Shown here piece by piece: positions 24,501 to 42,240 of a stretch of DNA of 64,000 nt. How positions within the stretch are numbered: the stretch's first letter is position 1; each line of letters begins with the position of its first letter. The stretch is from Nesterenkonia sandarakina (GTDB lineage Bacteria > Actinomycetota > Actinomycetes > Actinomycetales > Micrococcaceae). The translations under genes were made by a program, and so were the position numbers. Where the stretch lies: contig NZ_JACCFQ010000001.1 of assembly GCF_013410215.1 (NCBI RefSeq), forward strand, positions 1,612,001 through 1,676,000, in the 5' to 3' direction. The notes under the pieces are model-generated. The model was given only the letters and a program-made list of their open reading frames with translations, made no database searches and was not told the origin of the DNA.

Positions 24501-25250
24501 CACCATCCCGCGGAGACCGACCGCGAGGTGCTCACCGCGGAGCTCGACGCACGCTGGGACAGCCTGGGACGTGAAGCCGGGTGGGAGACCGAGAAGGACC
24601 GCTCCCGCGCCCGGGTGATGCTCAAGAAGCTCGCCGGGTACTTCGGCCACGTCCAGGGCCAGGGCCGTGCGGTGATCGCCCGCGAGCTGCAGGTCGAAGC
24701 CAGCCTGGAGGTCCCGCTGCCGCCGGACGAACCAGGTGGGGCACCTCAGACACGGTCCGTGGAGATCCGCGGCGTGATCGACCGGGTGGAACGCACCGAG
24801 GCCGGCGAGCTCTTCGTCATCGACCTGAAGACCGGCCGCCACAAACCCGCCCAGATCGAGATCCCGACTCACGGGCAGCTGGGCTCCTACCAGCTGCTGG
24901 TCGCCCTCGGCGCGGTGGACCGTGCCCTGCACGAAGCCCAGAACGCAGCACCGGCGGCAGAGGATGCCCAGCCAGTTGGCGGCGCAGCCCCCGGGCAGGA
25001 CGTTCCCGTGGCGTCTCCGGGGTCAGGTGCTGCGCTGCTGCACGTCGGAACCACTGTGGCCAAGACCGACCTGCAGAGACAAGAGCCGCTCACGGCGGAG
25101 GACACCTGGCCGCTGGAACAGCTCACCCAGGCCGCCCAGGTGATGAGCGGCAGCGTCTTTGCGGCCTACCACTCACCCAATCAACAGCGTTGCCTGGTCG
25201 GCTCGCTCTGCCCGCTCTGCGAGAACACGAAACAGGTGACCCAGCCATGA
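21528..25250 (+). CDS. adnA: AdnA subunit of the actinobacterial AdnAB helicase-nuclease (UvrD-like with C-terminal RecB-type nuclease)
   Basis: Part of the heterodimer that resects DNA double-strand breaks in Actinobacteria lacking canonical RecBCD use. 1240 residues: UvrD-type ATPase with Walker A GGPGSGKSS (29-37), a motif II that reads IIVDDLQEA rather than the usual DExQD, a long Pro/Gln/Asp linker with three EPQDPA repeats (about 420-445), and a C-terminal PD-(D/E)XK nuclease with IDLKTGR (Asp1099, Lys1101) and QLGSYQL. The last residues carry three cysteines (CLVGSLCPLC), reminiscent of the Fe-S staple of AddB-type nucleases. ATG 21528 is used; 21537 is an alternative. Its stop overlaps adnB by 4 bp. 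Confidence 0.92.
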   Translation: MILMEFDQSQHQLLAAAQRPGHGPILSFGGPGSGKSSLAAELALRHLESGQDSSRLLLLSPTRATSAVLRDQVEAGWALRDTSSRGGSLSEQPSRSFASYAFWLLGEARRREILSFTARRPRLLSGAEQDSIIRELLATDPASGLPPLNWPSSLQEAAGTDGFRKEIRELFDRAAEYGVSPEQLRGLAEQCRRPEWAAAAELYQRYREDLDAGANADAFDPAGLINEACNLLEENPEFLETERQRLRRIIVDDLQEATPSVYRLLRLIGAGADVLAFASPETAVQGFRGARPDKLRSWTVAPRRVTAESVLGLNPETDAEIAGIVRRSISGAMTPDPHGGLPGAEPSVRVLEGNHRISPTVGRAYARALRRIAPVGPQQPRQRWLQLLSAQPAPEPQQPAADSPASAAAPQDPASGPPASAAEPQDPAEPQDPAEPQDPAAPQDPATEDNGSCAVEIVPGDYLAEQFVLQEVLDRHHRHGVPFDQIAVIARNGALLKRLVRMFQTQGVPVRQSMSDVILNQEPAVAPLLRALHLVTAPPEPDTEHPVPLPEVLALLTSRYGETDSMTLRSLRQVLRSQERRRLRALADPAEPRSSDELLVAAANNAADPVFEEVRAQARFQHLTRGLERVAAMLAAGHAAAGPSSGPEELLWEIWNAAGVSRHWAGLTRWASAEGRRADHDLDAVMALFQAAERFSDQNPGASAIAFVDHIERLELPMDTLAKTSSADVAIEVLTPASAAGREFDTVILTGLQEGAWPNLNPRGQLLGSGHLVDVVEGRAEAAAQSLLVKRMNVLQDEYRLFASAVSRAKNRLYAVAVHAQEESPSMLLDLVVPPGEREARSGAIPRPITAHRLIAELRRHLEISIQSQLDDDAGSRLPESGAAALSAPASSGAESSSDQATETQRQAAARALAVLAEGGLIGAEPGTWWGLPELSTSAPLLEPEEPVRVSPSSVQSAVDSPLQWFTGAAGGVEATDFSRMLGSLIHEIAEHHPAETDREVLTAELDARWDSLGREAGWETEKDRSRARVMLKKLAGYFGHVQGQGRAVIARELQVEASLEVPLPPDEPGGAPQTRSVEIRGVIDRVERTEAGELFVIDLKTGRHKPAQIEIPTHGQLGSYQLLVALGAVDRALHEAQNAAPAAEDAQPVGGAAPGQDVPVASPGSGAALLHVGTTVAKTDLQRQEPLTAEDTWPLEQLTQAAQVMSGSVFAAYHSPNQQRCLVGSLCPLCENTKQVTQP

Positions 25251-28200
25251 CGGCCCTGCAGACCATGCGCTACAGCGCCCGAGACATCGCCGACGCGCTT
25301 CAGCGAGACACGCCCGCCGAGGACCGGAAGTACCCCACCGCCGAACAGCAGGCCGTCATCGAATCCGGGCTGGACCCGATGCTCGTCGTCGCCGGCGCCG
25401 GGTCGGGCAAGACCGCCACGATGGCCGACCGGGTGGTCTGGCTGGTGGCCAACGGGATCGTGCGTCCAGATCAGATCCTTGGCGTCACCTTCACCAAGAA
25501 GGCCGCCGGTGAGCTGCGCGAGCGGATCACCCGGAAGCTGGAGCAGCTGCTGGAGGCCGAGCTGATCTCCCCGGCCGATGTGGTGCCCGTGGAGGTCTCC
25601 GACACCGTAGAGCACGCCGACATCTCCGAGCTGCTCGCCCCCGCGGTCTCCACCTATCACTCCTATGCGAACACCCTGGTGACCGAGTACGGCCTGCAGA
25701 TCGGCTTGGAGCCCGAGACTCAGCTCATCGGCGAGGCCAAGGCCTGGCAGCTGGTTCATCGCCTGGTCAGCGCCTATGACCGGGCCGAGGTGTGGGTGGA
25801 GGCCGAGCAGTCGGCAGGGAACCTGGCCGGGTATGTGATGCGCCTGGCGGGGGACTGCGCCGAGCACCTGCAGTCCCCAGAGGCGGTAGAGGCCCACCTC
25901 GACGTCGAGCTGGCCCGGGTGGATGCCTGGGAACAGGCAGGTGCTGAGCTCAAGGGCAAGCAGATCGATCTGGTTCGGGCGCTGCGGGTGCGCCGGGAGA
26001 TGGCCGAACTGGTCCGCCGCTATCAGGAGAAGAAGCTCACCGACGGGCTGATGGACTACGGGGACCTGCTGCGCTTCGCCGCGCAGATCGCGCAGGACGT
26101 GCCCAGCGCGGGGGAGGCCGAGCGGGAGAAGTACAAGGTGGTGCTGCTCGACGAGTTCCAGGACACCTCCTACGCCCAGCTTGCGCTCTTCAGCAGCCTC
26201 TACGGCGCCGGAGGCTCCGGCGGCGGGATGGGCCACGCGGTCACCGCGGTCGGGGACCCCAACCAGTCGATCTACGGGTTCCGCGGCGCCTCCGCCGGGC
26301 AGCTCTTCGACTTCCCGCAGTCCTTCCCCGCGGTGGACCCCGACACCGACCAGCGCCGACCCGCCGCGCTGCTCCAGCTCACCAAGGCCTGGCGCAACGG
26401 GGAACGGATCCTCGACGTCGCGAACCGGCTGGTCGCGCCCTTCGCGCCGGACGCCGCAGACTCACTGGACAAGCCGTGGCGGGCGCATAACGCGCACCTA
26501 CGAGGACAGCTGAAGCCGCTGAGCCCACCCGACGGCGCCCACACCGGCAGGGTGCGCTATGGCTGGTACACCTCGGATATCGAGGAATCCCAGGCAATCA
26601 CCGAACAACTCAGTGCGGCGCTGCGCCCCGATGCGCAGCGCGCCCCAGAATCTGAGGCCCCGAGCTGCGCGGTGCTCGCCAGGACCCGCGCCCAACTGGA
26701 GACCATCGCCGAGCAGCTGCGCCTGGCCGGGCTGGACTATGAGCTGGTCGGGCTCTCCGGGTTGCTGAGCACCCCCGAGGTCGCCGAGGTGCTCGCCTAC
26801 CTGCGCGTCATCGCCGACCCCGGCCGTTCCGACGCGCTGATCCGGATTCTCGCCGGGGCCCGGTATCGGATCGGCCCGCGTGACCTGCTGCAGCTGCAGC
26901 GCTCCGCGCGCGACCTCGAGGGCCTGCGGCTTCGCGCACCTATCACCGAGCCGCACGAGGGCAGCGCGCAGTCCGGAGAGGACGCGACGTCGGCCGGCGC
27001 GGGTGGGCCTGCGGACGCCGAGGACCGGTATGAGTCCACCGAACTGGAGATGGACGAACGTGCCTCTTTGGTCGAGGCGCTGGAACGGCTCAAAGACTCG
27101 CCAGACCACGCCGAGCAGCTGGGGCTCTCTGCAGAGGGGCACCGCCGGCTGGTCCTGGCCAAGGAGCAGATCCGCCGGCTGCGGCAGTGGGCCACCCTGG
27201 ACCTGGGCGTGTTGATCCAGCGCATCGTCAGTGACACCGGGCTCGACATTGAGGTCGCCGCACGGCCCTGGGAGGAACAGCACCATGCCGCTCGGCAGTT
27301 GGACGCGTTGATCGATCAGGCCGAGAGCTACGCGGCCACCGAGACCACCCCGGACCTGCGCAGCTTCCTGGACTGGCTGGATGCGGCGGAGGAGAAGGAA
27401 CGCGGCCTGGAACAAGCCGATGTGGAACCGACCCCCGGGGCGATCCAACTGATGACCATCCATGCCTCCAAGGGACTGGAATGGGACGTGGTCGCTGTGG
27501 CGGGGCTGCGCGAGGACAAGTTCCCCAGCGCAAAGGCTGACCGGTGGACCGGCAGCAACGGGATGCTGCCGGCCCGGCTGCGCGGAGATCGCCGCAGCAT
27601 CCCGCAGTGGGAGTCCGAGCAGCCCGATCTGCGCTCCTGGGCTGTCTCGGCAGGGATAGGCAGCTGGAAGCAGTTCACCGAGGACAACCGGGTCTTCACC
27701 CAAGACGTGAAGGACTTCAGCCGGGAGGAGGAACGACGCCTGGCCTACGTCGCGGTGACGCGAGCCAAGAAGTTGCTGCTGTGCACCGGTGCCTGCTTCT
27801 ACGGCACTTCCGCCGGCAAGGATCCCTCGGAGTTCCTCGAGGAGATCCGCGCGGTGGCCGATGGTCTTGGCGACGCGGCGGCGGCATTGGAGTGGGCAGA
27901 GGTCCCCGATATGAAGGCCAACCCGGTGGGCAACGATCTCTTCGGCGCCCAGTGGCCCTATGACCCGCTGGCTCCGCTGTCGATCGGCCGCTATCGCCGG
28001 CAGGTCCATGAGGGCGAGCAGACCGCGTTGCCGCAGATCAACACCGTGGAGGCTCCAAAGGTCCAGCCCGGTCGCCGGGCTGCGCTGACCCGGGCCGCCG
28101 CTCTGGTGGAGCATGCCATCACCGACCGTGCGCAGTCTGCCGCGACATCCGCCGAGGCCGGCTCGGAGGCTTCACCGCTGACTCCCTGGGAGCAGGAGGC

Positions 28201-28942
28201 CGAATGGGTGGTGGATCGGGCGAGGGAGCAGCAGCGCGGGACCGGGGAGCCGCATTTCCCGGCGCATATCAGTGTCTCCAGTGTGGTGGGCATGGCGCGT
28301 GACGCCGAGTCCATGGCGGAGTTCGCCCGGCGTCCCGTGCCGGTGAAGCCTTCCCAGGCGGCGCGCCGCGGCACCGTCATGCACGAATGGATCGAGGAGT
28401 TCTACGAGACCCGCAGCAGGTTGCCCGGAATCGAAGAGCCTTACCGCGGTGATGAGGATCTGGACGACGCCTTTGACCTCTCCACGGTCAAGGAACGCTT
28501 CATTCAGACGGAGTGGGCGCAGCGCCGCCTGTACGCCGCCGAGATCCCGGTGGAGACCACCCTGGACGGGGTCGTGATCCGTGGCCGGATCGACGCCATC
28601 TTCGGCAAGGACGAGGCCGGCCAGGACCTCACCGCTGAAGACTTCGAGCGCTGGGAGCTGAAGTCAGCGCACGACCGAAATGCTCAGATGCAGCAGTGCA
28701 CCTGGGACCTGGTCGACTGGAAGACCGGCATGGTCCCCACAGGCAAAGACCTGCGTGAGAAGCAGATACAGCTCGCGGTCTACCGGCTGGCCTTCCATCG
28801 GCTCTACGGGGTGCCGCTGGAACAGATCGGAGCGTCCTTCTTCTACGTGGAGCATGGGGTGACTGTGCCGGGGACGGATCTTCCGGAAGAGGATGCGCTG
28901 AGGCAGTACCTCCGCGATGCGCGCAGCTACTTCGGCGGATGA
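25247..28942 (+). CDS. adnB: AdnB subunit of the AdnAB helicase-nuclease
   Basis: 1231-residue partner of AdnA and probably the active motor. It has Walker A AGAGSGKT (50-57), GVTFTKKAAGELRERI, VVLLDEFQDTSYAQL (intact DEFQD), GDPNQSIYGFRGA, and MTIHASKGLEWDVVAV. The C-terminal PD-(D/E)XK nuclease shows IRGRIDAIFGKD and DLVDWKTG (Asp1157, Lys1159), then KQIQLAVYRLAF. The start at 25247 (ATGA overlap) is chosen over a much longer open frame that runs antiparallel to nothing but lies inside adnA. The 3' end overlaps the last 16 bp of vsr on the opposite strand; this is the left edge of the accessory island. Confidence 0.93.
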   Translation: MTALQTMRYSARDIADALQRDTPAEDRKYPTAEQQAVIESGLDPMLVVAGAGSGKTATMADRVVWLVANGIVRPDQILGVTFTKKAAGELRERITRKLEQLLEAELISPADVVPVEVSDTVEHADISELLAPAVSTYHSYANTLVTEYGLQIGLEPETQLIGEAKAWQLVHRLVSAYDRAEVWVEAEQSAGNLAGYVMRLAGDCAEHLQSPEAVEAHLDVELARVDAWEQAGAELKGKQIDLVRALRVRREMAELVRRYQEKKLTDGLMDYGDLLRFAAQIAQDVPSAGEAEREKYKVVLLDEFQDTSYAQLALFSSLYGAGGSGGGMGHAVTAVGDPNQSIYGFRGASAGQLFDFPQSFPAVDPDTDQRRPAALLQLTKAWRNGERILDVANRLVAPFAPDAADSLDKPWRAHNAHLRGQLKPLSPPDGAHTGRVRYGWYTSDIEESQAITEQLSAALRPDAQRAPESEAPSCAVLARTRAQLETIAEQLRLAGLDYELVGLSGLLSTPEVAEVLAYLRVIADPGRSDALIRILAGARYRIGPRDLLQLQRSARDLEGLRLRAPITEPHEGSAQSGEDATSAGAGGPADAEDRYESTELEMDERASLVEALERLKDSPDHAEQLGLSAEGHRRLVLAKEQIRRLRQWATLDLGVLIQRIVSDTGLDIEVAARPWEEQHHAARQLDALIDQAESYAATETTPDLRSFLDWLDAAEEKERGLEQADVEPTPGAIQLMTIHASKGLEWDVVAVAGLREDKFPSAKADRWTGSNGMLPARLRGDRRSIPQWESEQPDLRSWAVSAGIGSWKQFTEDNRVFTQDVKDFSREEERRLAYVAVTRAKKLLLCTGACFYGTSAGKDPSEFLEEIRAVADGLGDAAAALEWAEVPDMKANPVGNDLFGAQWPYDPLAPLSIGRYRRQVHEGEQTALPQINTVEAPKVQPGRRAALTRAAALVEHAITDRAQSAATSAEAGSEASPLTPWEQEAEWVVDRAREQQRGTGEPHFPAHISVSSVVGMARDAESMAEFARRPVPVKPSQAARRGTVMHEWIEEFYETRSRLPGIEEPYRGDEDLDDAFDLSTVKERFIQTEWAQRRLYAAEIPVETTLDGVVIRGRIDAIFGKDEAGQDLTAEDFERWELKSAHDRNAQMQQCTWDLVDWKTGMVPTGKDLREKQIQLAVYRLAFHRLYGVPLEQIGASFFYVEHGVTVPGTDLPEEDALRQYLRDARSYFGG

Positions 28943-29406
28943 TTCTTGGTCGGAGTCGTGCGGAGGGTTAACTCGATGTCCAGCAAGACATCCTCGACCG
29001 ATTCGTGCTCCCAGTAACGGAGTACGGTCCAGCCTTCGTCACCCAGAAGGCGCGAGGTCTCCACGTCGCGCGCTCGGTTGCCCGAAATCTTCTTGGACCA
29101 GTAGTCCTGGTTCGTCTTGGGCATGATGAAGTGCCTAGGGCAACCATGCCAATAACAGCCGTCGATCAGGACCACTACCTTGCGACGGGTGAACGCGATG
29201 TCGACACTGCGACGGCGGTCCGAAGCGAGCGGTCGGTAGTTGACGCGGAATCGCCATCCCCGAGCATGAAGCGCGCGCCTGATTAGGAGTTCAGGCTTCG
29301 TATCCCGACCCCTGTTCGCGCGCATGGTCAGGCGCGCATTCTCGGAGGAAGCCCAGGACTCTGACGTCAGACTGGCTCCGGTGCCATCAGCTTGGTGGCT
29401 GTCCAC
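28927..29406 (-). CDS. vsr: Very short patch repair (Vsr) DNA mismatch endonuclease
   Basis: Nicks 5' of the T in T:G mismatches that arise by deamination of 5-methylcytosine, protecting the methylase target site from mutation. 159 residues with the family signature RANRGRDTKPELLIRRALH, RFRVNYRPL, the catalytic Asp in RSVDIAF, and the zinc/core motif DGCYWHGCPRHF followed by PKTNQDYW. The ATG at 29406 lies inside the 3' end of the methylase gene (40 bp overlap), so the two are translationally linked; a later start would still keep the core. The stop lies within the end of adnB on the opposite strand. Confidence 0.93.
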   Translation of the reverse strand: MDSHQADGTGASLTSESWASSENARLTMRANRGRDTKPELLIRRALHARGWRFRVNYRPLASDRRRSVDIAFTRRKVVVLIDGCYWHGCPRHFIMPKTNQDYWSKKISGNRARDVETSRLLGDEGWTVLRYWEHESVEDVLLDIELTLRTTPTKNHPPK

Positions 29407-30452
29407 TTAATGTTGGCGGGGACGCTGGGGTACGGCTCCGAGCGGAACGATTTGAAGAGCGCTTCGAAGATGACTCTTGCGCCTTCGACTGGCACCGCCA
29501 TGCCGATCTGCTTGCGAACGCTGCTGACACCACCGTGGAACCGGAAATTGTCGGGGAAGGTCTGGAGCCGAGCGCGCTCACGGTTGGTCAGTGCTCGGTC
29601 CTCGGACCAGTGGTAGATGTGCGTGCCTCCGCCACCGGAACCTGTCACGGTGTAGCTGGGCTTGTTTCGTTCGAGTCGGCGGTAGATGTTGCTGAGAGTG
29701 ACGCCCTTGACGTTCAGTGCCAGTTCTCCTTCGAGGCCCGCGTTGAACGCGTTCTTACCCTCGGGAATCGCCCGCAGTCGCTTGATCACGTTGAGGCTGT
29801 GCCTCGTGAGTTCTTGGTGGCTGACGTTAGGCGCAATTCCCGCCAGAGCCTCTTGAACAGTGACGTGGTTGTTCACCGTATTCGGTGCGGGGATAGCGAA
29901 CCTCACTCCTCGCTCCACTTCATCCTCGCGTATACCGACGATTATGACGCGGTGGCGCTTCTGCGGGACCCCGTAATCCTCGAACCGATAGAGATGGGGA
30001 GTCAGGCGGTATCCGGTCTCGGCCAGAGCGTTGAGGATCTGGGGGAGGGCCTGTCCGGAATTCGAACTGCGTAGACCTGAGACGTTCTCTGCAACGAACC
30101 AGCGCGGTTGCTTCTTCTTCAAGACCTCTACGCCATTCTGATAGAGCGGCCCGAACCTTCCGTTGAGTCCAAGGTTCTCGCCGACTGTGCTGAAGTCGTT
30201 GCAGGGGAAGCCGAAAGCAAAGCCGTCGATCTCTCCGAGTGCACCTATGTCGAGGGTCCTGACGTCGGAGCAGTGGACGTTCTCTGGCGCGACATCGACA
30301 TTGCGCCGGTAGGTGGCGCACGTGTCTGCATCAATGTCGTTCGCCCACGCGTGCACGAGTTTCACACCCACGTCTGTGGCGGCCTGACTGGCGCCCAGAG
30401 CCATGCCGCCGGGGCCTGAAAAAAACTCCCCCATTCTGAATCGTGCGCTCAT
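29367..30452 (-). CDS. dcm: C5-cytosine DNA methyltransferase
   Basis: Methylates carbon 5 of cytosine in a specific DNA sequence. 361 residues with motif I FFSGPGGMALGASQ (10-23), catalytic motif IV GFPCNDFS (Cys84), motif VI AENVSGL (121-127), motif VIII-like QKRHRVIIVGI, and motif X near the C terminus (RKQIGMAVPVEGA). GGAGG a few bases before the ATG at 30452 fixes the start. The target-recognition region is about residues 200-280; the target cannot be read from sequence. The pairing with vsr and the divergent GHKL/Z1/nuclease/AIPR operon suggests it marks self DNA for that system. Confidence 0.94.
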   Translation of the reverse strand: MSARFRMGEFFSGPGGMALGASQAATDVGVKLVHAWANDIDADTCATYRRNVDVAPENVHCSDVRTLDIGALGEIDGFAFGFPCNDFSTVGENLGLNGRFGPLYQNGVEVLKKKQPRWFVAENVSGLRSSNSGQALPQILNALAETGYRLTPHLYRFEDYGVPQKRHRVIIVGIREDEVERGVRFAIPAPNTVNNHVTVQEALAGIAPNVSHQELTRHSLNVIKRLRAIPEGKNAFNAGLEGELALNVKGVTLSNIYRRLERNKPSYTVTGSGGGGTHIYHWSEDRALTNRERARLQTFPDNFRFHGGVSSVRKQIGMAVPVEGARVIFEALFKSFRSEPYPSVPANIKWTATKLMAPEPV

Positions 30453-30820
30453 TCCGACTCCTCCGGTTACCTGTCCCTTGCGGACAGTTCAGCTCATCCA
30501 AATCTAGCAGCTCTATGGGCGCCCTGTCGTTGACACTTGGATCGACAGAACATGCGGGTTCATTCGAATGTACCTTCGACCTAGGACACGAGTCGCTGTC
30601 CTTGTTTGCCCCCTACGTTCCTGACATCTTCAACGACCTTCGAGCACTGCCCCGAGGTCGTGACGTGGGCGGAACGGTTCCACCGAGGCAGTCGAGTCAG
30701 TGATCACCTCGCCGTGCTTGGCAAAAATGGACTCCAAGAAGGGGTCCCGCTGTGGGACATGTCATATGCGTATGATTCGATTTAGCTTACTGATCGAACC
30801 GATAACCAAAGTGGAGCCTG
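30453..30820. promoter_or_regulatory. Divergent intergenic region between the methylase and the GHKL-Z1 operon
   Basis: 368 bp, AT-richer than the flanks, with no convincing gene. A -10-like TATGAT at 30771-30776 lies about 45 nt before the GHKL ATG, which has GGAG at 30812-30815. TTGACA occurs at 30528-30533. A small inverted repeat GTCCC-GCTGT-GGGAC (30744-30758) sits just upstream of the -10 and could be an operator. No controller-protein gene is present. A 62-codon open frame from 30515 is not supported. Confidence 0.5.
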
Positions 30821-32296
30821 ATGTTCGAGAATCATCTTCAGATTCGCCCAAGCCCCAAGCTCATGGAGAGCATGCGGGCACTGGGTTACACCTCAGACGT
30901 AGCGGTCGCAGACATCGTCGACAACAGCTTGGATGCAGGCGCAAGCTCGATTGAGATCCGAGGTGATGTCAGCGACGAACCTGCCTGGCTTTGGGTATCC
31001 GACAACGGTCAAGGCATGACACTCACCCAGATGGTGGAGGCTCTGAAGCTCGCAGCCGTATCAAGCGTGGACGCACGGGGTGAGAATGACCTCGGCCGAT
31101 TCGGTCTCGGCCTGAAGACCGCCAGCTTTTCACAGTGTCGACGTCTGACAGTTATTTCGCGGCGGGATGGTGTCACGCACGGAATTCGATTCGATCTCGA
31201 CGAGTTAAGGGAGTCCGATGACTGGTCTGTGAGACGGCTCGAGGAATCGGACTTGGGTGAAGTCCCGGGGTTCCAGGACTTCTCGAAGCAGGAGTTCGGA
31301 ACCTTGGTCTGCTGGCAGAAGCTTGATCGACTGATGGAGAGCCGCTCGAGCGGCGCTGCAGGAATGGGCGAGGTGATTGCTGAATTGAGAGCACACCTCG
31401 GATTGACATTTCATCGGTTGCTGGCGCCAGAGGACCATATTCGAGGTCGGCTGTCCATGGTCTTGAACGGTCGCGCCGTTCAGCCGATCGACCCCTTCCT
31501 GCGCCAGAACCGCGCGGTGGAGATGACATCGCCGGAAGCTATAAAGATCGGAAATGACACGATCAAGGTCCAGGCGTTCACATTGCCCGACTCATCTTTG
31601 ATCACAGGCCCGGACGCCGAGCGTAAGGACCTCCGGGATGGCATGTACGCAGCTCAAGGATTCTATTTCTACCGCAACAGGCGACTGATCAGTCACGGTG
31701 GGTGGGCCAACCTTGGTGGGCGGCGAGACTCCACCAAGCACAGCAGGATACTTGTGGACCTGCCCAACTCCACAGACGACCAGTGGCAGCTCGACGTAAT
31801 GAAGAACAAAGTCGTTCCTCCCGCGTCAGTGCGACGCCAGTTGGCGAGATTCTACGAAGTGGGAAGCAGGAAAAGTGGCAGAATAATTTCCTATCGCGGC
31901 CGGCGAGTTTCTAGCCCAGATGTTGAGTATGCGTGGATCCCGGTGACCGAGCGGGGAGGATTTCGATATGAGCCCAACATTGAACATCCAGTGCTAGATG
32001 ACGCCTTGACTGATCTCTCGCAGACTCAGCGGGACAAGATGGTCCGCGCTTTGCGCCATCTCGGACTACTGATCCCATACGGCGATATTAGACGTCGGAT
32101 GTCGATAGATGACGAGGTGCCGGCACGGGAGCACCAGGATGCCCTTGTCCAACACGTGCTTGACGTGGTTGCAACCCTTGAGCTCGATTTGCTGAGTCCA
32201 GAAACGGTCGGGGCGGTCCTGCAGCACATTGAGCCTTTCGCGGGCCGACGAGATTTAGAGCAGATCATCGCCCGTGCGGCACAAGCCCATCGATAG
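30821..32296 (+). CDS. MutL/MORC-like GHKL ATPase of a defense system
   Basis: 491 residues with a complete Bergerat ATP-binding fold: N box ADIVDNSLDAG (30-40), G1 box SDNGQGM (60-66), G2 box GRFGLGLKTASF (92-103). These are the motifs of Hsp90/MutL/MORC ATPases, which dimerise on ATP binding and clamp DNA. After the ATPase and transducer-like region (FYFYRNRRLISHGGW near 285) the C-terminal half has no recognised domain. No MutL endonuclease motif DQHA(X)2E(X)4E is seen. First gene of the operon; ATG 30821 follows GGAG. In related systems such ATPases are encoded next to Z1 and AIPR proteins, as here. Confidence 0.85.
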   Translation: MFENHLQIRPSPKLMESMRALGYTSDVAVADIVDNSLDAGASSIEIRGDVSDEPAWLWVSDNGQGMTLTQMVEALKLAAVSSVDARGENDLGRFGLGLKTASFSQCRRLTVISRRDGVTHGIRFDLDELRESDDWSVRRLEESDLGEVPGFQDFSKQEFGTLVCWQKLDRLMESRSSGAAGMGEVIAELRAHLGLTFHRLLAPEDHIRGRLSMVLNGRAVQPIDPFLRQNRAVEMTSPEAIKIGNDTIKVQAFTLPDSSLITGPDAERKDLRDGMYAAQGFYFYRNRRLISHGGWANLGGRRDSTKHSRILVDLPNSTDDQWQLDVMKNKVVPPASVRRQLARFYEVGSRKSGRIISYRGRRVSSPDVEYAWIPVTERGGFRYEPNIEHPVLDDALTDLSQTQRDKMVRALRHLGLLIPYGDIRRRMSIDDEVPAREHQDALVQHVLDVVATLELDLLSPETVGAVLQHIEPFAGRRDLEQIIARAAQAHR

Positions 32297-32320
32297 CGCC
32301 ACGAAAGAGGTAGAAGAACC

Positions 32321-35200
32321 ATGAGCGACTCTACAGTTAGAGCGAGACTCTCACGCAGCTTCGAAGACATGCCCGCGTACAACCAATTGACGTCCATGGT
32401 GATCGGCTGGGCGGATGGCCTCAAAGCCGGAGCTATCCCTACGGAGCTTGAACTGCGCGGAATGGTGCAAAACGTCGCGAATATGCTCGATTTTGCAGGA
32501 GACCTAGGTCATGGCGACCGTGATGGCGTTCTGGACTCAGTCACCAGGGAACTGCTGACACGGGTGAATACGACGCAGACCATCGGAGAAGCAGTCGCGT
32601 CGTACTATCGACCCTGGATTGGCGATGCCTGGGCGGATGCTGGTCGCGACTGGGAATACTGGAACACCTACAAGCGACTGTTGCAGAAGCAGGGTCGCCC
32701 ACCGAAAATGCTCACAACACTCGAGGAAGACGTCAAGAACATTCTCGAGCTTGTTGGGGATCCTCGGGAGGAGGGGCACTGGCAGCGCAGGGGTCTGGTC
32801 ATGGGTGATGTCCAGTCGGGAAAAACCTCGAATTTCGTCGGTTTGATGAATATGGCTGCTGACGCGGGATATCGCCTATTTGTTGTCGTGGGTGGTCACA
32901 CCGAGGACCTGCGTTCGCAGACTCAGGACCGTGTGGACGAGGGATTTATTGGGCGCAGGTCAATTGATCTCGATGGTCGAAATCTAAAGGGGGACCGGCT
33001 TGTCGGCGTAGGTCCATTGCGGGACCGCAACTCCATAATCTCTGTGACGACGACTGAGACCGACTTCGTTGCGAGTTCACGCCGTGCTCTGCAGCTTGGA
33101 GACCTAGATAACAGTGTTTCCGCTCCAGTGGTACTAGTTGTTAAAAAGAACTCGAGCATCCTCAAAAACCTTGCAGCGTGGTTAAAAAAGGCCTCCAATA
33201 ATGGAGTCTTGGAACTTCCTACGATGTTCATAGACGACGAGTCTGACTATGCGTCGGTCAATACGAATAAAAAAGACCAGGAGGAGGCTACGGCTGTCAA
33301 TAGGGCGATTCGCTCGATCCTGGAGACTTCGCAACGCTCTACTTACATTGGTTTCACTGCGACCCCGTTTGCCAATGTTCTCACGGACCCGTCTTCCAAT
33401 GGTGATCTTTTTCCACGGCATTTTGTGTATTCGCTCTACGCTCCAAATAATTACAGCGGAGCAAAAGAGTATTTCGAGAATAATAAGTCGTTGCACGCCA
33501 GAAACCAAGTCGAAGATGCTGAGGGAAGCTTTCCGTTCAAACATAAGTCGACCCACAAGGTGCCCCAGCTTCCAGACAGTCTATTAGAGGCAATCGATGC
33601 CTTTATCGTGTCTTGCGCTGTGACGAACTTGCGGGGTGGAATCAAGTCCACTCGTTCCATGCTGGTCAACGTGAGTCGCTTCAAGGGTGTTCAGAGGCAG
33701 GTGCACGACCTGGTGGAGGAGCACGTCGAGAGTATCGCCAGCGTGGTGCGCAACGTCGGAGCAGCGCCCGCTCGCGATGATCAAGCACCGGAAGCGGTCC
33801 TCCGGCTCAGAGATGCCTGGGCGAGGGAGTATGCCGATCTAGACTATTCGTGGGAGGAGGTCTTCGCAGCCCTCCCCGATGCGGCTGAAGTCATAGAAGC
33901 GGAGCTCGTAAACGGCGATACCGCGAAGCAGCGAGCCGAAGGGGCAGACGCCAGGGCGCGAAGTCACAGTGACCGAGGACGCCGATACATAGCCGTTGGC
34001 GGTGCCATCTTGTCTCGCGGTCTTACGCTTGAAGGCCTCGTGGTCAGCTACTTCTACCAGCGTACCCAGTTGTCTGACACGCTTCTGCAGATGGGTCGTT
34101 GGTTCGGTTATAGAGACTCATACAAGGATCTTGTTCGAATCTGGCTTCCACTCGAGGTGATGGAGTGGTTCCTCTTCACCGCTGAAGCGTTGGAGGACAT
34201 CAGAAAAGATGTGAGTCGCATGAGAAGGCTTGAAATGACGCCCGAGGATTTTGGTCTCAAGATCCAGAAGCACCCTGAGGCACTTAAGGTCACAGCAGCG
34301 AACAAGATGCGCCACGCCGATAGTGCGGAAGTGAACCTGGCCTTCGATAAGTTGTCTGTAGAAACGAAGACGGCTGCGATCCACGAAGAAGCCGGCGCGG
34401 CCAATCGGCGAGCATTACTCGATCTCGTCGTTGCTTGTGAAAATGAAATGTCTGATCCTGGACTGCCTGCGGAAAAGTCGCAGGTAGGTGCGACCTCAGC
34501 TCTCGCCTATTCGCGTGTCGGGCGCCTGGTCGTAGAAGACTTTTTCTCGAGTTTCGTTCCGGGACCAGTCGACACAAACTTTGCTCGCAACTCGCTCACT
34601 GGTTCGTTTGTCTCCGACTACGTGCGGTCTATGAATCATGAAGAGGGAGAAATATGGGACGTCGTGGTCATATCTGGAGAAGGAAGTCCGGTTGATGAGC
34701 TAAGTCCATATGGCAAGGTCTTTGCCAACCAGCGCAATCAAGCGAATCTCATAAGTGATAGTCCTCGGCCGCATATCAAATTTGCCAATAGTCGTGTTGC
34801 TTCAGGGGAGAATCTCGTTACAGCAGCCCGGAGTCTTCGTAACGGCCCAGATTCTAGATGGGCTGATGTCCTCCTTAGGAGGCAGGAGGAGTTGCTCGAG
34901 GAGGCAGTGGACACAACAAAGAAGCGCAAGCTCTCCGAATCGGAGGTCTTGCAGACGATCGATAGGCCGATTCTCCTCGTTTACCCGATTCAGGCACGCC
35001 GGCCGAACTCCGATCTCTCGATTGGGCCCGAAGACGGGGTACTGGGTCTCAAGCTGGCCTTCCCGGCCCTTCGGGACGAACTCGGTGCGATCGTGGAGGG
35101 TGTCCCGAACGTGAGATATGTCGTAAATCAGATTTGGCTGCGAGAGGCGGGACTTGATTCAGAGGATCGCGTAATGGGAGATGAGGAACGAGATGAATGA
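32321..35200 (+). CDS. Z1-domain superfamily II-type ATPase
   Basis: 959 residues. The ATPase has Walker A GDVQSGKTSN (162-171), Walker B MFIDDESD (Asp305, Asp306, Glu307), motif III-like YIGFTATPFANVL, and the Z1 region after it with GGAILSRGLTLEGL and YFYQRTQLSDTLLQMGRWFG, the hallmark of the Z1 domain family. These proteins are encoded in restriction-like operons and are thought to translocate or remodel DNA; no direct nuclease motif is apparent here. AAAGAGG lies 10 nt before the ATG at 32321. The stop overlaps the next gene's start by 8 bp, suggesting stoichiometric co-translation. Base composition is the most AT-rich of the window. Confidence 0.9.
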   Translation: MSDSTVRARLSRSFEDMPAYNQLTSMVIGWADGLKAGAIPTELELRGMVQNVANMLDFAGDLGHGDRDGVLDSVTRELLTRVNTTQTIGEAVASYYRPWIGDAWADAGRDWEYWNTYKRLLQKQGRPPKMLTTLEEDVKNILELVGDPREEGHWQRRGLVMGDVQSGKTSNFVGLMNMAADAGYRLFVVVGGHTEDLRSQTQDRVDEGFIGRRSIDLDGRNLKGDRLVGVGPLRDRNSIISVTTTETDFVASSRRALQLGDLDNSVSAPVVLVVKKNSSILKNLAAWLKKASNNGVLELPTMFIDDESDYASVNTNKKDQEEATAVNRAIRSILETSQRSTYIGFTATPFANVLTDPSSNGDLFPRHFVYSLYAPNNYSGAKEYFENNKSLHARNQVEDAEGSFPFKHKSTHKVPQLPDSLLEAIDAFIVSCAVTNLRGGIKSTRSMLVNVSRFKGVQRQVHDLVEEHVESIASVVRNVGAAPARDDQAPEAVLRLRDAWAREYADLDYSWEEVFAALPDAAEVIEAELVNGDTAKQRAEGADARARSHSDRGRRYIAVGGAILSRGLTLEGLVVSYFYQRTQLSDTLLQMGRWFGYRDSYKDLVRIWLPLEVMEWFLFTAEALEDIRKDVSRMRRLEMTPEDFGLKIQKHPEALKVTAANKMRHADSAEVNLAFDKLSVETKTAAIHEEAGAANRRALLDLVVACENEMSDPGLPAEKSQVGATSALAYSRVGRLVVEDFFSSFVPGPVDTNFARNSLTGSFVSDYVRSMNHEEGEIWDVVVISGEGSPVDELSPYGKVFANQRNQANLISDSPRPHIKFANSRVASGENLVTAARSLRNGPDSRWADVLLRRQEELLEEAVDTTKKRKLSESEVLQTIDRPILLVYPIQARRPNSDLSIGPEDGVLGLKLAFPALRDELGAIVEGVPNVRYVVNQIWLREAGLDSEDRVMGDEERDE

Positions 35201-36170
35201 CTTCGAGACTCCCCCGCTGGATTGGTTCGTTGTTCAGGCAGAGGAACTGCGAAGCAAAAGCGCGGGGGTTGGCAAACGCGTACATGCGGAGTTTCTTGAC
35301 TTGCGGTTCCAGAACTTTGGAAGCAACCGAGTGGGTCTCCGTATAGCGCTCGACACTCGTCCAAGGATCGCCACGACACTGCAGCTAGTCCGCTGCGATG
35401 TGCGAAGAGTGAGCGACGGTTGGGTTCTGGACGTGGTCGAGCGTGAACAGGGGGCATCAGAGCAGGCTGCCCCCTTTTTTCGTGATCTTGCCCGAAGACT
35501 TGGGCAAGCCAATCAGGAAACAGCACTCGTGCATGTCGAATCCACGCTGGGAGCCTGGCGCACCGCGTTTGCCGCGCGTCGTGACCTATTGTCCGACGAG
35601 GAAATGATCGGTCTCTTCGGCGAACTCGAGGTGCTCGGTGTCATTCTGGATCGTGGTCTGGCGGGCTCCGAGCCAATCCCTTCCTGGACAGGGCCCGGAG
35701 GGTCTGATCATGACTTCACACTTCCCGGGCTCTATCAAATTGAATGCAAGGCCACCGCGCCGCACTCGGAGAAGCTCCACATCAGCAACGAGGATCAGCT
35801 CGAGTCCAAGGATATGTCGCTCTATCTGGCATGTGTCAGGGCCGCCATCGTCCAGGACGCTCGATCGGGGACCACGCTGCCTGAAGTTGTGCATCAGATT
35901 GAATCCAAACTGCGTGACGACGGCTCCGTTCAGCTGTTCCATCAAAAACTGGATGCAGTGCATTTCGACCGCCTGGATCGTAGGTACGAAGATGTCGCGA
36001 TCGAATTGACCTCTATCGACTACTACGAGGTGCGAGACGGAGCGCCGCGCATAGTGCCGGGAGACCTCCACGCCGGGGTCTCTCGGGTCAAGTACCAGAT
36101 ACGCACCAATGATCTGGCTCCATACAAAGTTCCTGAACTGCCGCACGCGTCAATCTCGAAGAGGATGTGA
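35193..36170 (+). CDS. PD-(D/E)XK nuclease-like protein (DUF4420 type)
   Basis: 325 residues from the ATG at 35193, which sits within the end of the Z1 gene. A PD-(D/E)XK core is visible: Glu144 in IGLFGELEVLG, then SWTGPGGSDHDF with Asp172/Asp174, then IECKAT (Glu184-x-Lys186), followed by ISNEDQLES with the Gln typical of these nucleases. The arrangement matches the DUF4420 family found with Z1 and AIPR proteins. It is the only gene of the operon with a recognisable nuclease active site, so it is the likely DNA-cutting component. Two bases separate its stop from the AIPR start. Confidence 0.82.
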   Translation: MNDFETPPLDWFVVQAEELRSKSAGVGKRVHAEFLDLRFQNFGSNRVGLRIALDTRPRIATTLQLVRCDVRRVSDGWVLDVVEREQGASEQAAPFFRDLARRLGQANQETALVHVESTLGAWRTAFAARRDLLSDEEMIGLFGELEVLGVILDRGLAGSEPIPSWTGPGGSDHDFTLPGLYQIECKATAPHSEKLHISNEDQLESKDMSLYLACVRAAIVQDARSGTTLPEVVHQIESKLRDDGSVQLFHQKLDAVHFDRLDRRYEDVAIELTSIDYYEVRDGAPRIVPGDLHAGVSRVKYQIRTNDLAPYKVPELPHASISKRM

Positions 36171-36172
36171 AT

Positions 36173-38251
36173 ATGGATTTCTCCCAGTTTCAGGCAGGTC
36201 TGGTGAACGATGGACGGACCCGAGCCGAGACGGACCTGACCACCTTCGAAGAGGCCATAGGTCTCGTGCTGTGTGATCTTCTTGAGGAACTTGAGATAGT
36301 CCAGGACCTCCAGGTGTTCCACGCCCGCACCAGGGGTGTGAGGAATCGCCAGCTGGCAATCGAGGCGGTCGGTGAGGATCCCGTTGACGGAACTACCTCT
36401 ATCGTTGTGGTCCTGAATACGCCAGACGTCGATTCTTCGCTCAAGAAGACCGACATTGACCGCGCAGTTGCTGGTGCTGAGCAGTTCGTGAGGCTTGCTA
36501 CAGCAGGGGACCTGCAGCCACACTTGGAGGAAAGCGCCCCCGCCTACGAGTTGGCAGAGTACTTCAGAGATAGATCCTCGGACACGGATCGCTACCGCGT
36601 TGAGGTGGTCAGCAATGCGAGCGCCACACAGGGTGTGAAACAGCTGTCCTTTGAGCCTGCGACCATCGGCGGCGCAACGATGACTTTCCGGGTCTGGGAC
36701 GCGGCACGCCTGCACAACACGGTTAGTTCCAGCTCGCAGCGGGAGCCGATCGAAATCGTCCTGGGGGAGGAAGGCGAGGGCGTGCCGTGTGTGCACGGCG
36801 GGACCACGGAGGAGGGCATCAAAACTTACCTCTTCACGATCTCGGGGCGTCATCTGGCTTCCATCTATGACGATTTCGGATCACGGGTTCTCGAGTCCAA
36901 TGTGCGCGGCTTCCTGAGCGCCCGAGGAAATGTGAACAAGGGTATCCAATGGACGCTCAACAACGACCCGGGCATGTTCCTCGCCTTCAACAACGGTCTG
37001 ACAACCACGGCCACAGATGTCACGCTCGAGCAACATGCTGGCGCGCTCCGAATCAAGTCTTTGAAAGATTGGCAGATCGTGAATGGGGGCCAGACGACGG
37101 CCTCTATGTGGTACTTCGCCAACCAGAACAAGAAGCGAAATCCTGAAAAACTCGCAAATCTCGATGGAGCCTCAGTTCAGGTGAAGCTTGTAGTGGTCGA
37201 TGACGAGCGTGCATCTGAGATCGTTCCCGATATCGCTCGCTACGCCAACAGTCAGAACAAGGTCAATCTGTCAGACTTCTCATCTAATTCACCCTTCCAG
37301 AAGTTGCTGGACCGCCAAAGCCGACACGTCCTCGCACCCTCCCAAGAGGTTCAGTACGACACCCGGTGGTTCTACGAAAGAACCAGAGGAGCATACGAGA
37401 ATGCGCGGGCTCGAACATTCGGTGCACGCGTCCGCGAGTTCGACGCTCATAATCCTAAGAGCCAGAAGTTCGACAAGCTTGAGGTCGCCAAGGTCGAGAA
37501 CATCTGGCGATTCGCGCCTCAGGTGGTGAGTAAGGGAGCCCAGTCCAGCTTCTTGTATTTCTCAGAGTTGATCGCCAAAGAATGGAATCGTGACGAGTCC
37601 CAGTTCAACGACGCCTACTACCGTGATCTGATCGCCCGCTTGATCTTGTTCCGCAGCACGCGGAGCCACGTACAGGAGGCCGCGTGGTACACGACTGGCT
37701 ACCTGGCCAACATCGTCGCTTATGGAATGAGCAAGTTCTTCTACGATCTCCAGGACATGTTCGACGAGCACCTGATCGATCTGGGAGCTATCTGGCGAGA
37801 GCAATCCTGCGACGCGCGCGTCATGGAGAATATTGACGTCGCATGTGAGGCTGCTCGCGAGCATCTCACGCGCGCCGACAGGCCTCAGGAAAACGTCACG
37901 CAGTGGGCCAAGCAGGACCTCTGCTGGACGACCTTCCGCGATACTCCCCTTGAGTATTTTGAAACCGCAGAGGATGTAGTCGTCTCAGAGGCGGAACGCG
38001 CGGTAGAGATTGCGGCGGCCAAGGAGGAGCGGGTCGAAGAGTCGAAGTTGCTGGGCTACTTCGATCTTTTCAAGGTTGATCCAAAGACTTGGCCTGCACT
38101 CAAAGAGTTCACCGGGCAGAACTTCGCGCTGTCCGAGAAAGAAACCGGCGTACTGCGTGCCATGGTCACCAAGAACTATGTGACGGAATCCCAGGGTAAA
38201 GTCCTGTCATCACTCCTGAAGAAGGCCGAGAAAGAGGGCTTCCGGGCCTGA
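36173..38251 (+). CDS. AIPR-family protein (abortive infection phage resistance)
   Basis: 692 residues; ATG 36173 is preferred to the GTG at 36167 because GAAGAGG then has 8-nt spacing. The centre carries the AIPR pattern: LNNDPGMFLAFNNGLTTTATDV, then WQIVNGGQTTASMWYF (Asn304 region), VVVDDERASEIVPDIARYANSQNKV and RGAYENARARTFG. Family members are named for phage-resistance proteins; their biochemistry is not settled. The C-terminal third is helical and charged. Last gene of the GHKL-Z1-nuclease-AIPR operon. It ends 40 bp before the convergent tenA gene, which marks the right edge of the island. Confidence 0.88.
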   Translation: MDFSQFQAGLVNDGRTRAETDLTTFEEAIGLVLCDLLEELEIVQDLQVFHARTRGVRNRQLAIEAVGEDPVDGTTSIVVVLNTPDVDSSLKKTDIDRAVAGAEQFVRLATAGDLQPHLEESAPAYELAEYFRDRSSDTDRYRVEVVSNASATQGVKQLSFEPATIGGATMTFRVWDAARLHNTVSSSSQREPIEIVLGEEGEGVPCVHGGTTEEGIKTYLFTISGRHLASIYDDFGSRVLESNVRGFLSARGNVNKGIQWTLNNDPGMFLAFNNGLTTTATDVTLEQHAGALRIKSLKDWQIVNGGQTTASMWYFANQNKKRNPEKLANLDGASVQVKLVVVDDERASEIVPDIARYANSQNKVNLSDFSSNSPFQKLLDRQSRHVLAPSQEVQYDTRWFYERTRGAYENARARTFGARVREFDAHNPKSQKFDKLEVAKVENIWRFAPQVVSKGAQSSFLYFSELIAKEWNRDESQFNDAYYRDLIARLILFRSTRSHVQEAAWYTTGYLANIVAYGMSKFFYDLQDMFDEHLIDLGAIWREQSCDARVMENIDVACEAAREHLTRADRPQENVTQWAKQDLCWTTFRDTPLEYFETAEDVVVSEAERAVEIAAAKEERVEESKLLGYFDLFKVDPKTWPALKEFTGQNFALSEKETGVLRAMVTKNYVTESQGKVLSSLLKKAEKEGFRA

Positions 38252-38291: not shown

Positions 38292-38996
38292 TCAGTCAAA
38301 GTATGACGACGCGTACGCCGCATCAAAGAACGCCCGCTCGATCGCCACGATCCGCTTCCACCGTGCGGACAATCGTGCACCGTCGTCAGACGCCAGCGGC
38401 GGGGCCACTCGGTTCAGCTCATCGATCAGGAACTGGGTCCACGCCCGGAAGTCCTCCCCGCGGTGCAGGTCTATCCAGCCCCGGTGCTTCGACGCCTCGG
38501 GCAGGGGCAGATCGCGCTGGCCCCAGTCCAGGTACAGCCACTCCGCGATCACCAGCACCACCAGAAGGTCTGCGTAGTCTCTGGACCGAGCCACCTCCCA
38601 CATCTGGGCGATGAACTCCTCCGTGGGCGCGGCAAGATCCGGACTGACGACATCCGAATCGGGCACGCCCAGCTCGGCGAAGCTCTGCTGGAAGTATCCA
38701 TCCTCATCAGCGGCGAGCATCCCGAGCTGAGCAGCGAAGCGCAGCCGCGCCGGCTTGGAATCGGTGGTGGCCACGCAGGCGCCCAGCATCGCGATGAAGG
38801 CGTCGAAAAACTGGTAGTCCTGCACCAGATAGCGAGCCAGCACCTCATCGCTGAGCGTCCCGTCAAACAGCTCGTCAACGAACCGATGGTTCACCGAGGC
38901 GTCCCAGTCTTCGGCCGTGGCCAGCCGCAGCGCTCCGGCGAAACTGTCCGCGGCGACGTCGGCGGTGGTGGTGGAGAAGGTGGTGGGGGAACTCAT
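38292..38996 (-). CDS. tenA: TenA-family protein (thiaminase II / aminopyrimidine hydrolase-like)
   Basis: 234 residues of the all-helical TenA fold, used in thiamin salvage to hydrolyse aminopyrimidine (base-degraded thiamin) compounds. Visible signatures are RYLVQDYQFFDAF near 56-68 and VLVIAEWLYLDWGQ near 147-160. The position that holds the catalytic cysteine in classical TenA_C enzymes is not a Cys here, so it belongs with the TenA_E-like group, which uses a glutamate. It sits 49 bp downstream of an MFS transporter on the same strand, perhaps a two-gene unit. No TPP riboswitch was seen upstream. Confidence 0.8.
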   Translation of the reverse strand: MSSPTTFSTTTADVAADSFAGALRLATAEDWDASVNHRFVDELFDGTLSDEVLARYLVQDYQFFDAFIAMLGACVATTDSKPARLRFAAQLGMLAADEDGYFQQSFAELGVPDSDVVSPDLAAPTEEFIAQMWEVARSRDYADLLVVLVIAEWLYLDWGQRDLPLPEASKHRGWIDLHRGEDFRAWTQFLIDELNRVAPPLASDDGARLSARWKRIVAIERAFFDAAYASSYFD

Positions 38997-40512: not shown

Positions 40513-42240
40513 TCAACCAGTCGGCGGGCGCAGGCCCGGGTGCCGCTGGTAGATCGACTCGTCGCCGTGCTCATCGGTCTCCGGGGAGGCGGGCGAATCG
40601 GCAGACGCTGGGGAGTCCGGTGATTCAGGTGAGTTCGGTGAGCCAGATGAGGATGGGGACGCAGAAGAGGCTGGAGATGCTGCCGCTTCGTTGGACTGCG
40701 GGTAGTCATCGGCGACCGGGGCCACAGACTGGGCCGAGGCGGCCGATTGTGCGGACTGTGCCGAACGGGCCGACTGGGCCGAGGAGGCAGAGCCCGTGGA
40801 GGCCGCTGAGCTGGCCGAGCCGACGCCAGGGAAGAAGTGCTTCTCCTTCGCTCGACGCTCAGAGGCGGCGTCGGGGTGAATCGGCAGGTCGCCCTCGTCT
40901 TCCTCCTCGAAGATCTGCTCGGGAAGCGGCTCGTAGGCGGCAGCCTGATCGGCGACCGGCTGATGGGCGACCCGCTGATCGCTGACCACCGGGGTTGAAC
41001 CGGTGGGCTCATCTCCGGGCAACGGACGCGCCGCGAACGCGGGGACCTTGCCCGTCGCACCGTCATCCTCACTGACGCCCTGGTGGTGGACATGGTCACT
41101 GTCGGAGTCGTGGTCGGGGTGGTGACCGCGGTCCTGGCCGGTCTGCTCGGCACCGGCATCGGTGATCACGGCGGGCTCGTCGTCGTCCTCACCGGACTCC
41201 GCCCACTCACCGGTGTCGGCCACGGTCGCCGCGGCACCGGCCCGAGCCACGGGACGCGAATCCTGGACCTCGGCCGCTGCAGCAGGCTCCTCACCCTCCA
41301 GCGGGGTCAGCGCGATCGGCTGCCCGCCGTAAGTCTCGATGTCCACCTTCAGCTGCTCCAGGAGACTCTTCGCCTCGGCGATCATCTCCGGGTTCTCGCT
41401 GGCGTGTCCGCGCACCAGCCACTGGGCCAGAGCGAACTCCGCGGTCAGCGCGGCGCGGCGCATCAGATGCTCATCGACCTCACCGGTGCGGTGCCGACGG
41501 TACGCCGCGAGCACCTTCTCGGTGAACTCCACATCTCCGGCGGCGGTGAGCCAGGCAAAGTCATCCGCCGGGTCCCCGCTGTGCAGATCGGTCCAACCGG
41601 TGACCGCCATGACGCGCTCACCTTCGATCAGCAGCGAATCCTCGTGCAGATCCCCGTGGGTGACGGCCGGGGTGAAGCGCCACAGCTCGCGGTCCTCCAT
41701 GGCGTGTTCCCAGCGGCGCAGCAGCAGCGCAGGGATCTCCCCGGTGGTCGCAGCCTGGTCCAGCTCGTTGAGTCGACGCTGGCGGTACCGCTCGGCCGAG
41801 TATCGGGGCAGGTCGGCGTTGTCCACCACGGCCTCATCCAGGTCGTGGATCGCGGCGATGGTGCGCCCGATGTCCTCGATGACGGTCGGGGACTGCTGGG
41901 CCAGCTCGCTGAGCTCGAAGGAGGTGCCGGGCAGGTGGTTATAGACGAAGGTGCGCATCTCCCCGCGGCGCACGGCGCCGGCGACGGAGGGAACCCGGAA
42001 CGGCAGCTCGGCGCGGATGCCGGTGGAGAAGCCGCGCAGCACCTGCAGCTCGGTCTCCAGGCGCATCGCCGCCTCCTGATGCTGAGGCGAGCGGATCCGC
42101 CAGCGGTGACCTTCGGAGTCGATGACGACGGCGGAGGTGAAGTCGCGGGCGTCGTCAGCGGCCGCAGCCACGCCGGTAGGGGAAAGCCCCGGCACTGCCG
42201 CGGTCGCCAGGGCCGCAAGTTCCATCGATGTCCATCGCAC
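40513..42240 (-). CDS. Aminoglycoside-phosphotransferase-fold protein with long disordered tail, possibly a pseudokinase
   Basis: 575 residues. Residues 1-300 follow the APH/choline-kinase fold: TFVYNHLPGTSFELSEL, AAIHDLD, and the catalytic loop THGDLHEDSLLI, followed by GWTDLHSGDPADDFAWL. Two key positions are altered: the loop Asn is Ser, and the metal-binding Asp expected before W in the second motif is Gly (VTGWTDL). The remaining ~250 residues are acidic and Ser/Ala/Pro-rich with SAQSARSAQSAQSA-type repeats. Start is GTG 42240, kept because the N terminus RWTSMELAALATAAVPGLSP looks conserved. It is divergent from nudC; this gene is, from memory, a regular neighbour of adnB-nudC-uvrD2 in Micrococcaceae. 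Confidence 0.8.
   Translation of the reverse strand: MRWTSMELAALATAAVPGLSPTGVAAAADDARDFTSAVVIDSEGHRWRIRSPQHQEAAMRLETELQVLRGFSTGIRAELPFRVPSVAGAVRRGEMRTFVYNHLPGTSFELSELAQQSPTVIEDIGRTIAAIHDLDEAVVDNADLPRYSAERYRQRRLNELDQAATTGEIPALLLRRWEHAMEDRELWRFTPAVTHGDLHEDSLLIEGERVMAVTGWTDLHSGDPADDFAWLTAAGDVEFTEKVLAAYRRHRTGEVDEHLMRRAALTAEFALAQWLVRGHASENPEMIAEAKSLLEQLKVDIETYGGQPIALTPLEGEEPAAAAEVQDSRPVARAGAAATVADTGEWAESGEDDDEPAVITDAGAEQTGQDRGHHPDHDSDSDHVHHQGVSEDDGATGKVPAFAARPLPGDEPTGSTPVVSDQRVAHQPVADQAAAYEPLPEQIFEEEDEGDLPIHPDAASERRAKEKHFFPGVGSASSAASTGSASSAQSARSAQSAQSAASAQSVAPVADDYPQSNEAAASPASSASPSSSGSPNSPESPDSPASADSPASPETDEHGDESIYQRHPGLRPPTG

Follow-up and report, generated by a model that had tools for sequence, protein, structure and literature searches.

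The closest described relatives of the system considered here are the MORC operons delineated computationally by Iyer, Abhiman and Aravind (2008), for whose neighbourhoods that paper names cytosine methylases, VSR and AIPR. We compared with them a six-gene locus from Nesterenkonia sandarakina, carried on a 64,000-nucleotide stretch of contig NZ_JACCFQ010000001.1 (the window). The locus is a widespread, already described kind of predicted DNA-methylation-linked anti-virus system, and its six-gene set is ordinary. That the set exists had been observed in a first-pass annotation and was confirmed, as were its tight operon, its protein families (Pfam profile matches including DNA_methylase, Vsr, HATPase_c_3, DUF4420, and AIPR), and its connection to the 2008 work. 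Like the third type of MORC operon in that study, the locus encodes a MORC protein, a helicase with the DThhQXuRhFG motif, and a restriction endonuclease (RE)-fold protein with an E-D-ExK signature, with a cytosine methylase, Vsr, and AIPR alongside; comparison with the text of that study found no difference.

The diagnostic motifs were all recovered, and conservation was assessed across 65 loci. The MORC-specific S5 motif GhXhhpXXRhl corresponds to GFYFYRNRRLI at residue 280 (pattern in 65/65 loci), the superfamily II (SF-II) helicase motif to DTLLQMGRWFG at residue 586 (strict pattern in 56/65), and the E-D-ExK signature of the predicted RE-fold protein to E148, D178, E188, and K190, identical in all 65. 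The nearest PDB matches of the MORC protein were MORC3 and MutL, both weak. Three related loci that lack MORC carry a gene of ~610 to 650 amino acids after DUF4420 (L011, 6004-7968; L010, 6175-8130; L026, 10421-12259). All three copies contain a GHKL-like string, ETIQNTWDA or ESLQNSWDA, and those of L011 and L026 had no Pfam match; this gene may be an unrecognised paraMORC.

The Vsr protein scored 116 bits against the curated Vsr model TIGR00632 (cut-off 97.85) and could be aligned to the Vsr structure 1cw0. Its D69 and H87 were conserved in 37 and 38, respectively, of 38 aligned Vsr proteins, and we take these residues to have catalytic roles. For the methylase, the closest solved structures include the HaeIII and HhaI methylases. 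Each protein is the sole match to its family in the host genome, so 5-methylcytosine made by a methylase of this family should originate at this locus. A Vsr-bearing version in an actinobacterium had been thought worth describing; however, Vsr accompanies 25 of the 46 AIPR-bearing actinobacterial loci, the window included, and therefore does not make the locus unusual. With VSR already named in 2008, neither Vsr nor the actinobacterial host brings novelty.

Another relative is Mza (MzaABCDE), reportedly the work of Gao et al. in 2020. The comparison, made through PMC9523054, NCBIfam, and PADLOC, supported the kinship with Mza that had been proposed but not strict membership. Homologues of MzaB, C, D, and E occur in the same order (PADLOC E-values of 3.6e-73, 4.1e-107, 9.6e-09, and 4.1e-64), whereas all four NCBIfam equivalog scores fell far under their cut-offs (297/850, 437/1500, 79/420, and 287/1050) and no MzaA sigma factor was found in the window. 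The single MzaA match in the genome lies ~0.83 Mb away, in an open reading frame read as a housekeeping sigma factor. The locus also resembles a published type consisting of a core with AIPR and MORC, whose identity to mzaBCDE is stated as ~20%. The section describing it assigns 'known DNA repair endonucleases' to its Type I, whereas here Vsr occurs with the AIPR/MORC form. The CglI and NgoAVII restriction-modification systems (PMC4267653) differ in part: the CglI nuclease is of PLD type with a B3 domain, unlike the PD-(D/E)XK nuclease here, and MORC and AIPR are additional here. At E<=0.001, none of the six proteins matched PLD or B3.

The methylation-coupled role proposed for the locus is supported by its relatives: of 114 related loci, 110 have a C5 methylase in the stretch that was fetched. 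Several observations weigh against it. Four loci have no methylase (L056, L214, L217, and L092, the last of which stops at a contig end), one member within each of three operon clusters carries an unrelated methylase, and no published experiment on the locus or its close kin was found. In the two methylase swaps that could be tested, no operon window shifted alongside beyond controls, a result that fits poorly with an operon that itself recognises the sequence read by the methylase. The ATPase pair had been proposed to sense unmodified DNA; in this comparison, of limited power, nothing pointed to a recognition domain that pairs with the methylase. Such swaps, along with the homology to MzaB-E and a methylase gene that varies in both its orientation and its distance, would also suit an Mza-like anti-phage operon that does not use methylation, with the methylase and Vsr as a separate unit neighbouring it in a defence island. 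We consider this unlikely, given how regularly the methylase recurs and that a plasmid locus pairs an annotated mzaE with a DNA cytosine methyltransferase two genes onward.

It is far less probable that the locus is a DNA repair cassette in which MORC stands in for a missing MutL as the partner of Vsr. The MutL family PF01119 had no match in the genome, MORC resembles MutL, and the parallel is discussed by Iyer et al. (2008), but this pairing was rejected in view of the loci without Vsr.

AIPR had been suggested as an abortive effector, and AIPR is proposed to be a HEPN RNase in PMC3506569. The first suggestion found no support and the HEPN reading was rejected: the three Rx4-6H strings in the AIPR protein of this locus show no conservation across the 65 loci, and nothing else in it could be recognised as a catalytic signature. 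Neither a single-sequence search (E<=0.1) nor a profile search (E<=1) turned up a PDB relative for AIPR.

Table 1. Features of the six-gene locus and its flanks (window coordinates).
Feature	Position	Strand	Evidence
UvrD-like helicase-nuclease gene, left flank (start codon uncertain)	24581..28942	+	Pfam
Vsr mismatch (T:G) endonuclease, 159 aa	28927..29406	-	Pfam Vsr 58 bits
C5-cytosine DNA methyltransferase, 361 aa	29367..30452	-	Pfam DNA_methylase 243 bits
Divergent intergenic region, methylase / operon	30453..30820	n/a	by sequence
Prokaryotic MORC GHKL ATPase (MzaB-like), 491 aa	30821..32296	+	HATPase_c_3 105 bits
Operon gene between MORC gene and DUF4420 gene	32321..35200	+	
DUF4420 PD-(D/E)XK nuclease (MzaD-like), 329 aa	35181..36170	+	DUF4420 159 bits
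AIPR family protein (MzaE-like), 694 aa	36167..38251	+	AIPR 287 bits, AIPR_N 81 bits
TenA/THI-4 family gene, right flank	38292..38996	-	Pfam

Flank comparison revealed that the left flank is common to relatives without the six-gene island, and that on the right side similarity to four such relatives restarts at 38309-38314; the stop codon of the UvrD-like gene falls within the island edge. No promoter-like matches were found inside the divergent intergenic region. A tRNA-Ala called by ARAGORN at 40980-41067, within a Ser/Ala-rich open reading frame and with no Rfam support, is probably false.

Methylases of the same target-domain type, as judged by eye, accompany operons both with and without MORC/AIPR. 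The related loci hint at modular exchange, with the methylase and the cutting machinery traded independently of each other, and the natural methylase swaps now allow one to ask which subunit reads the target.
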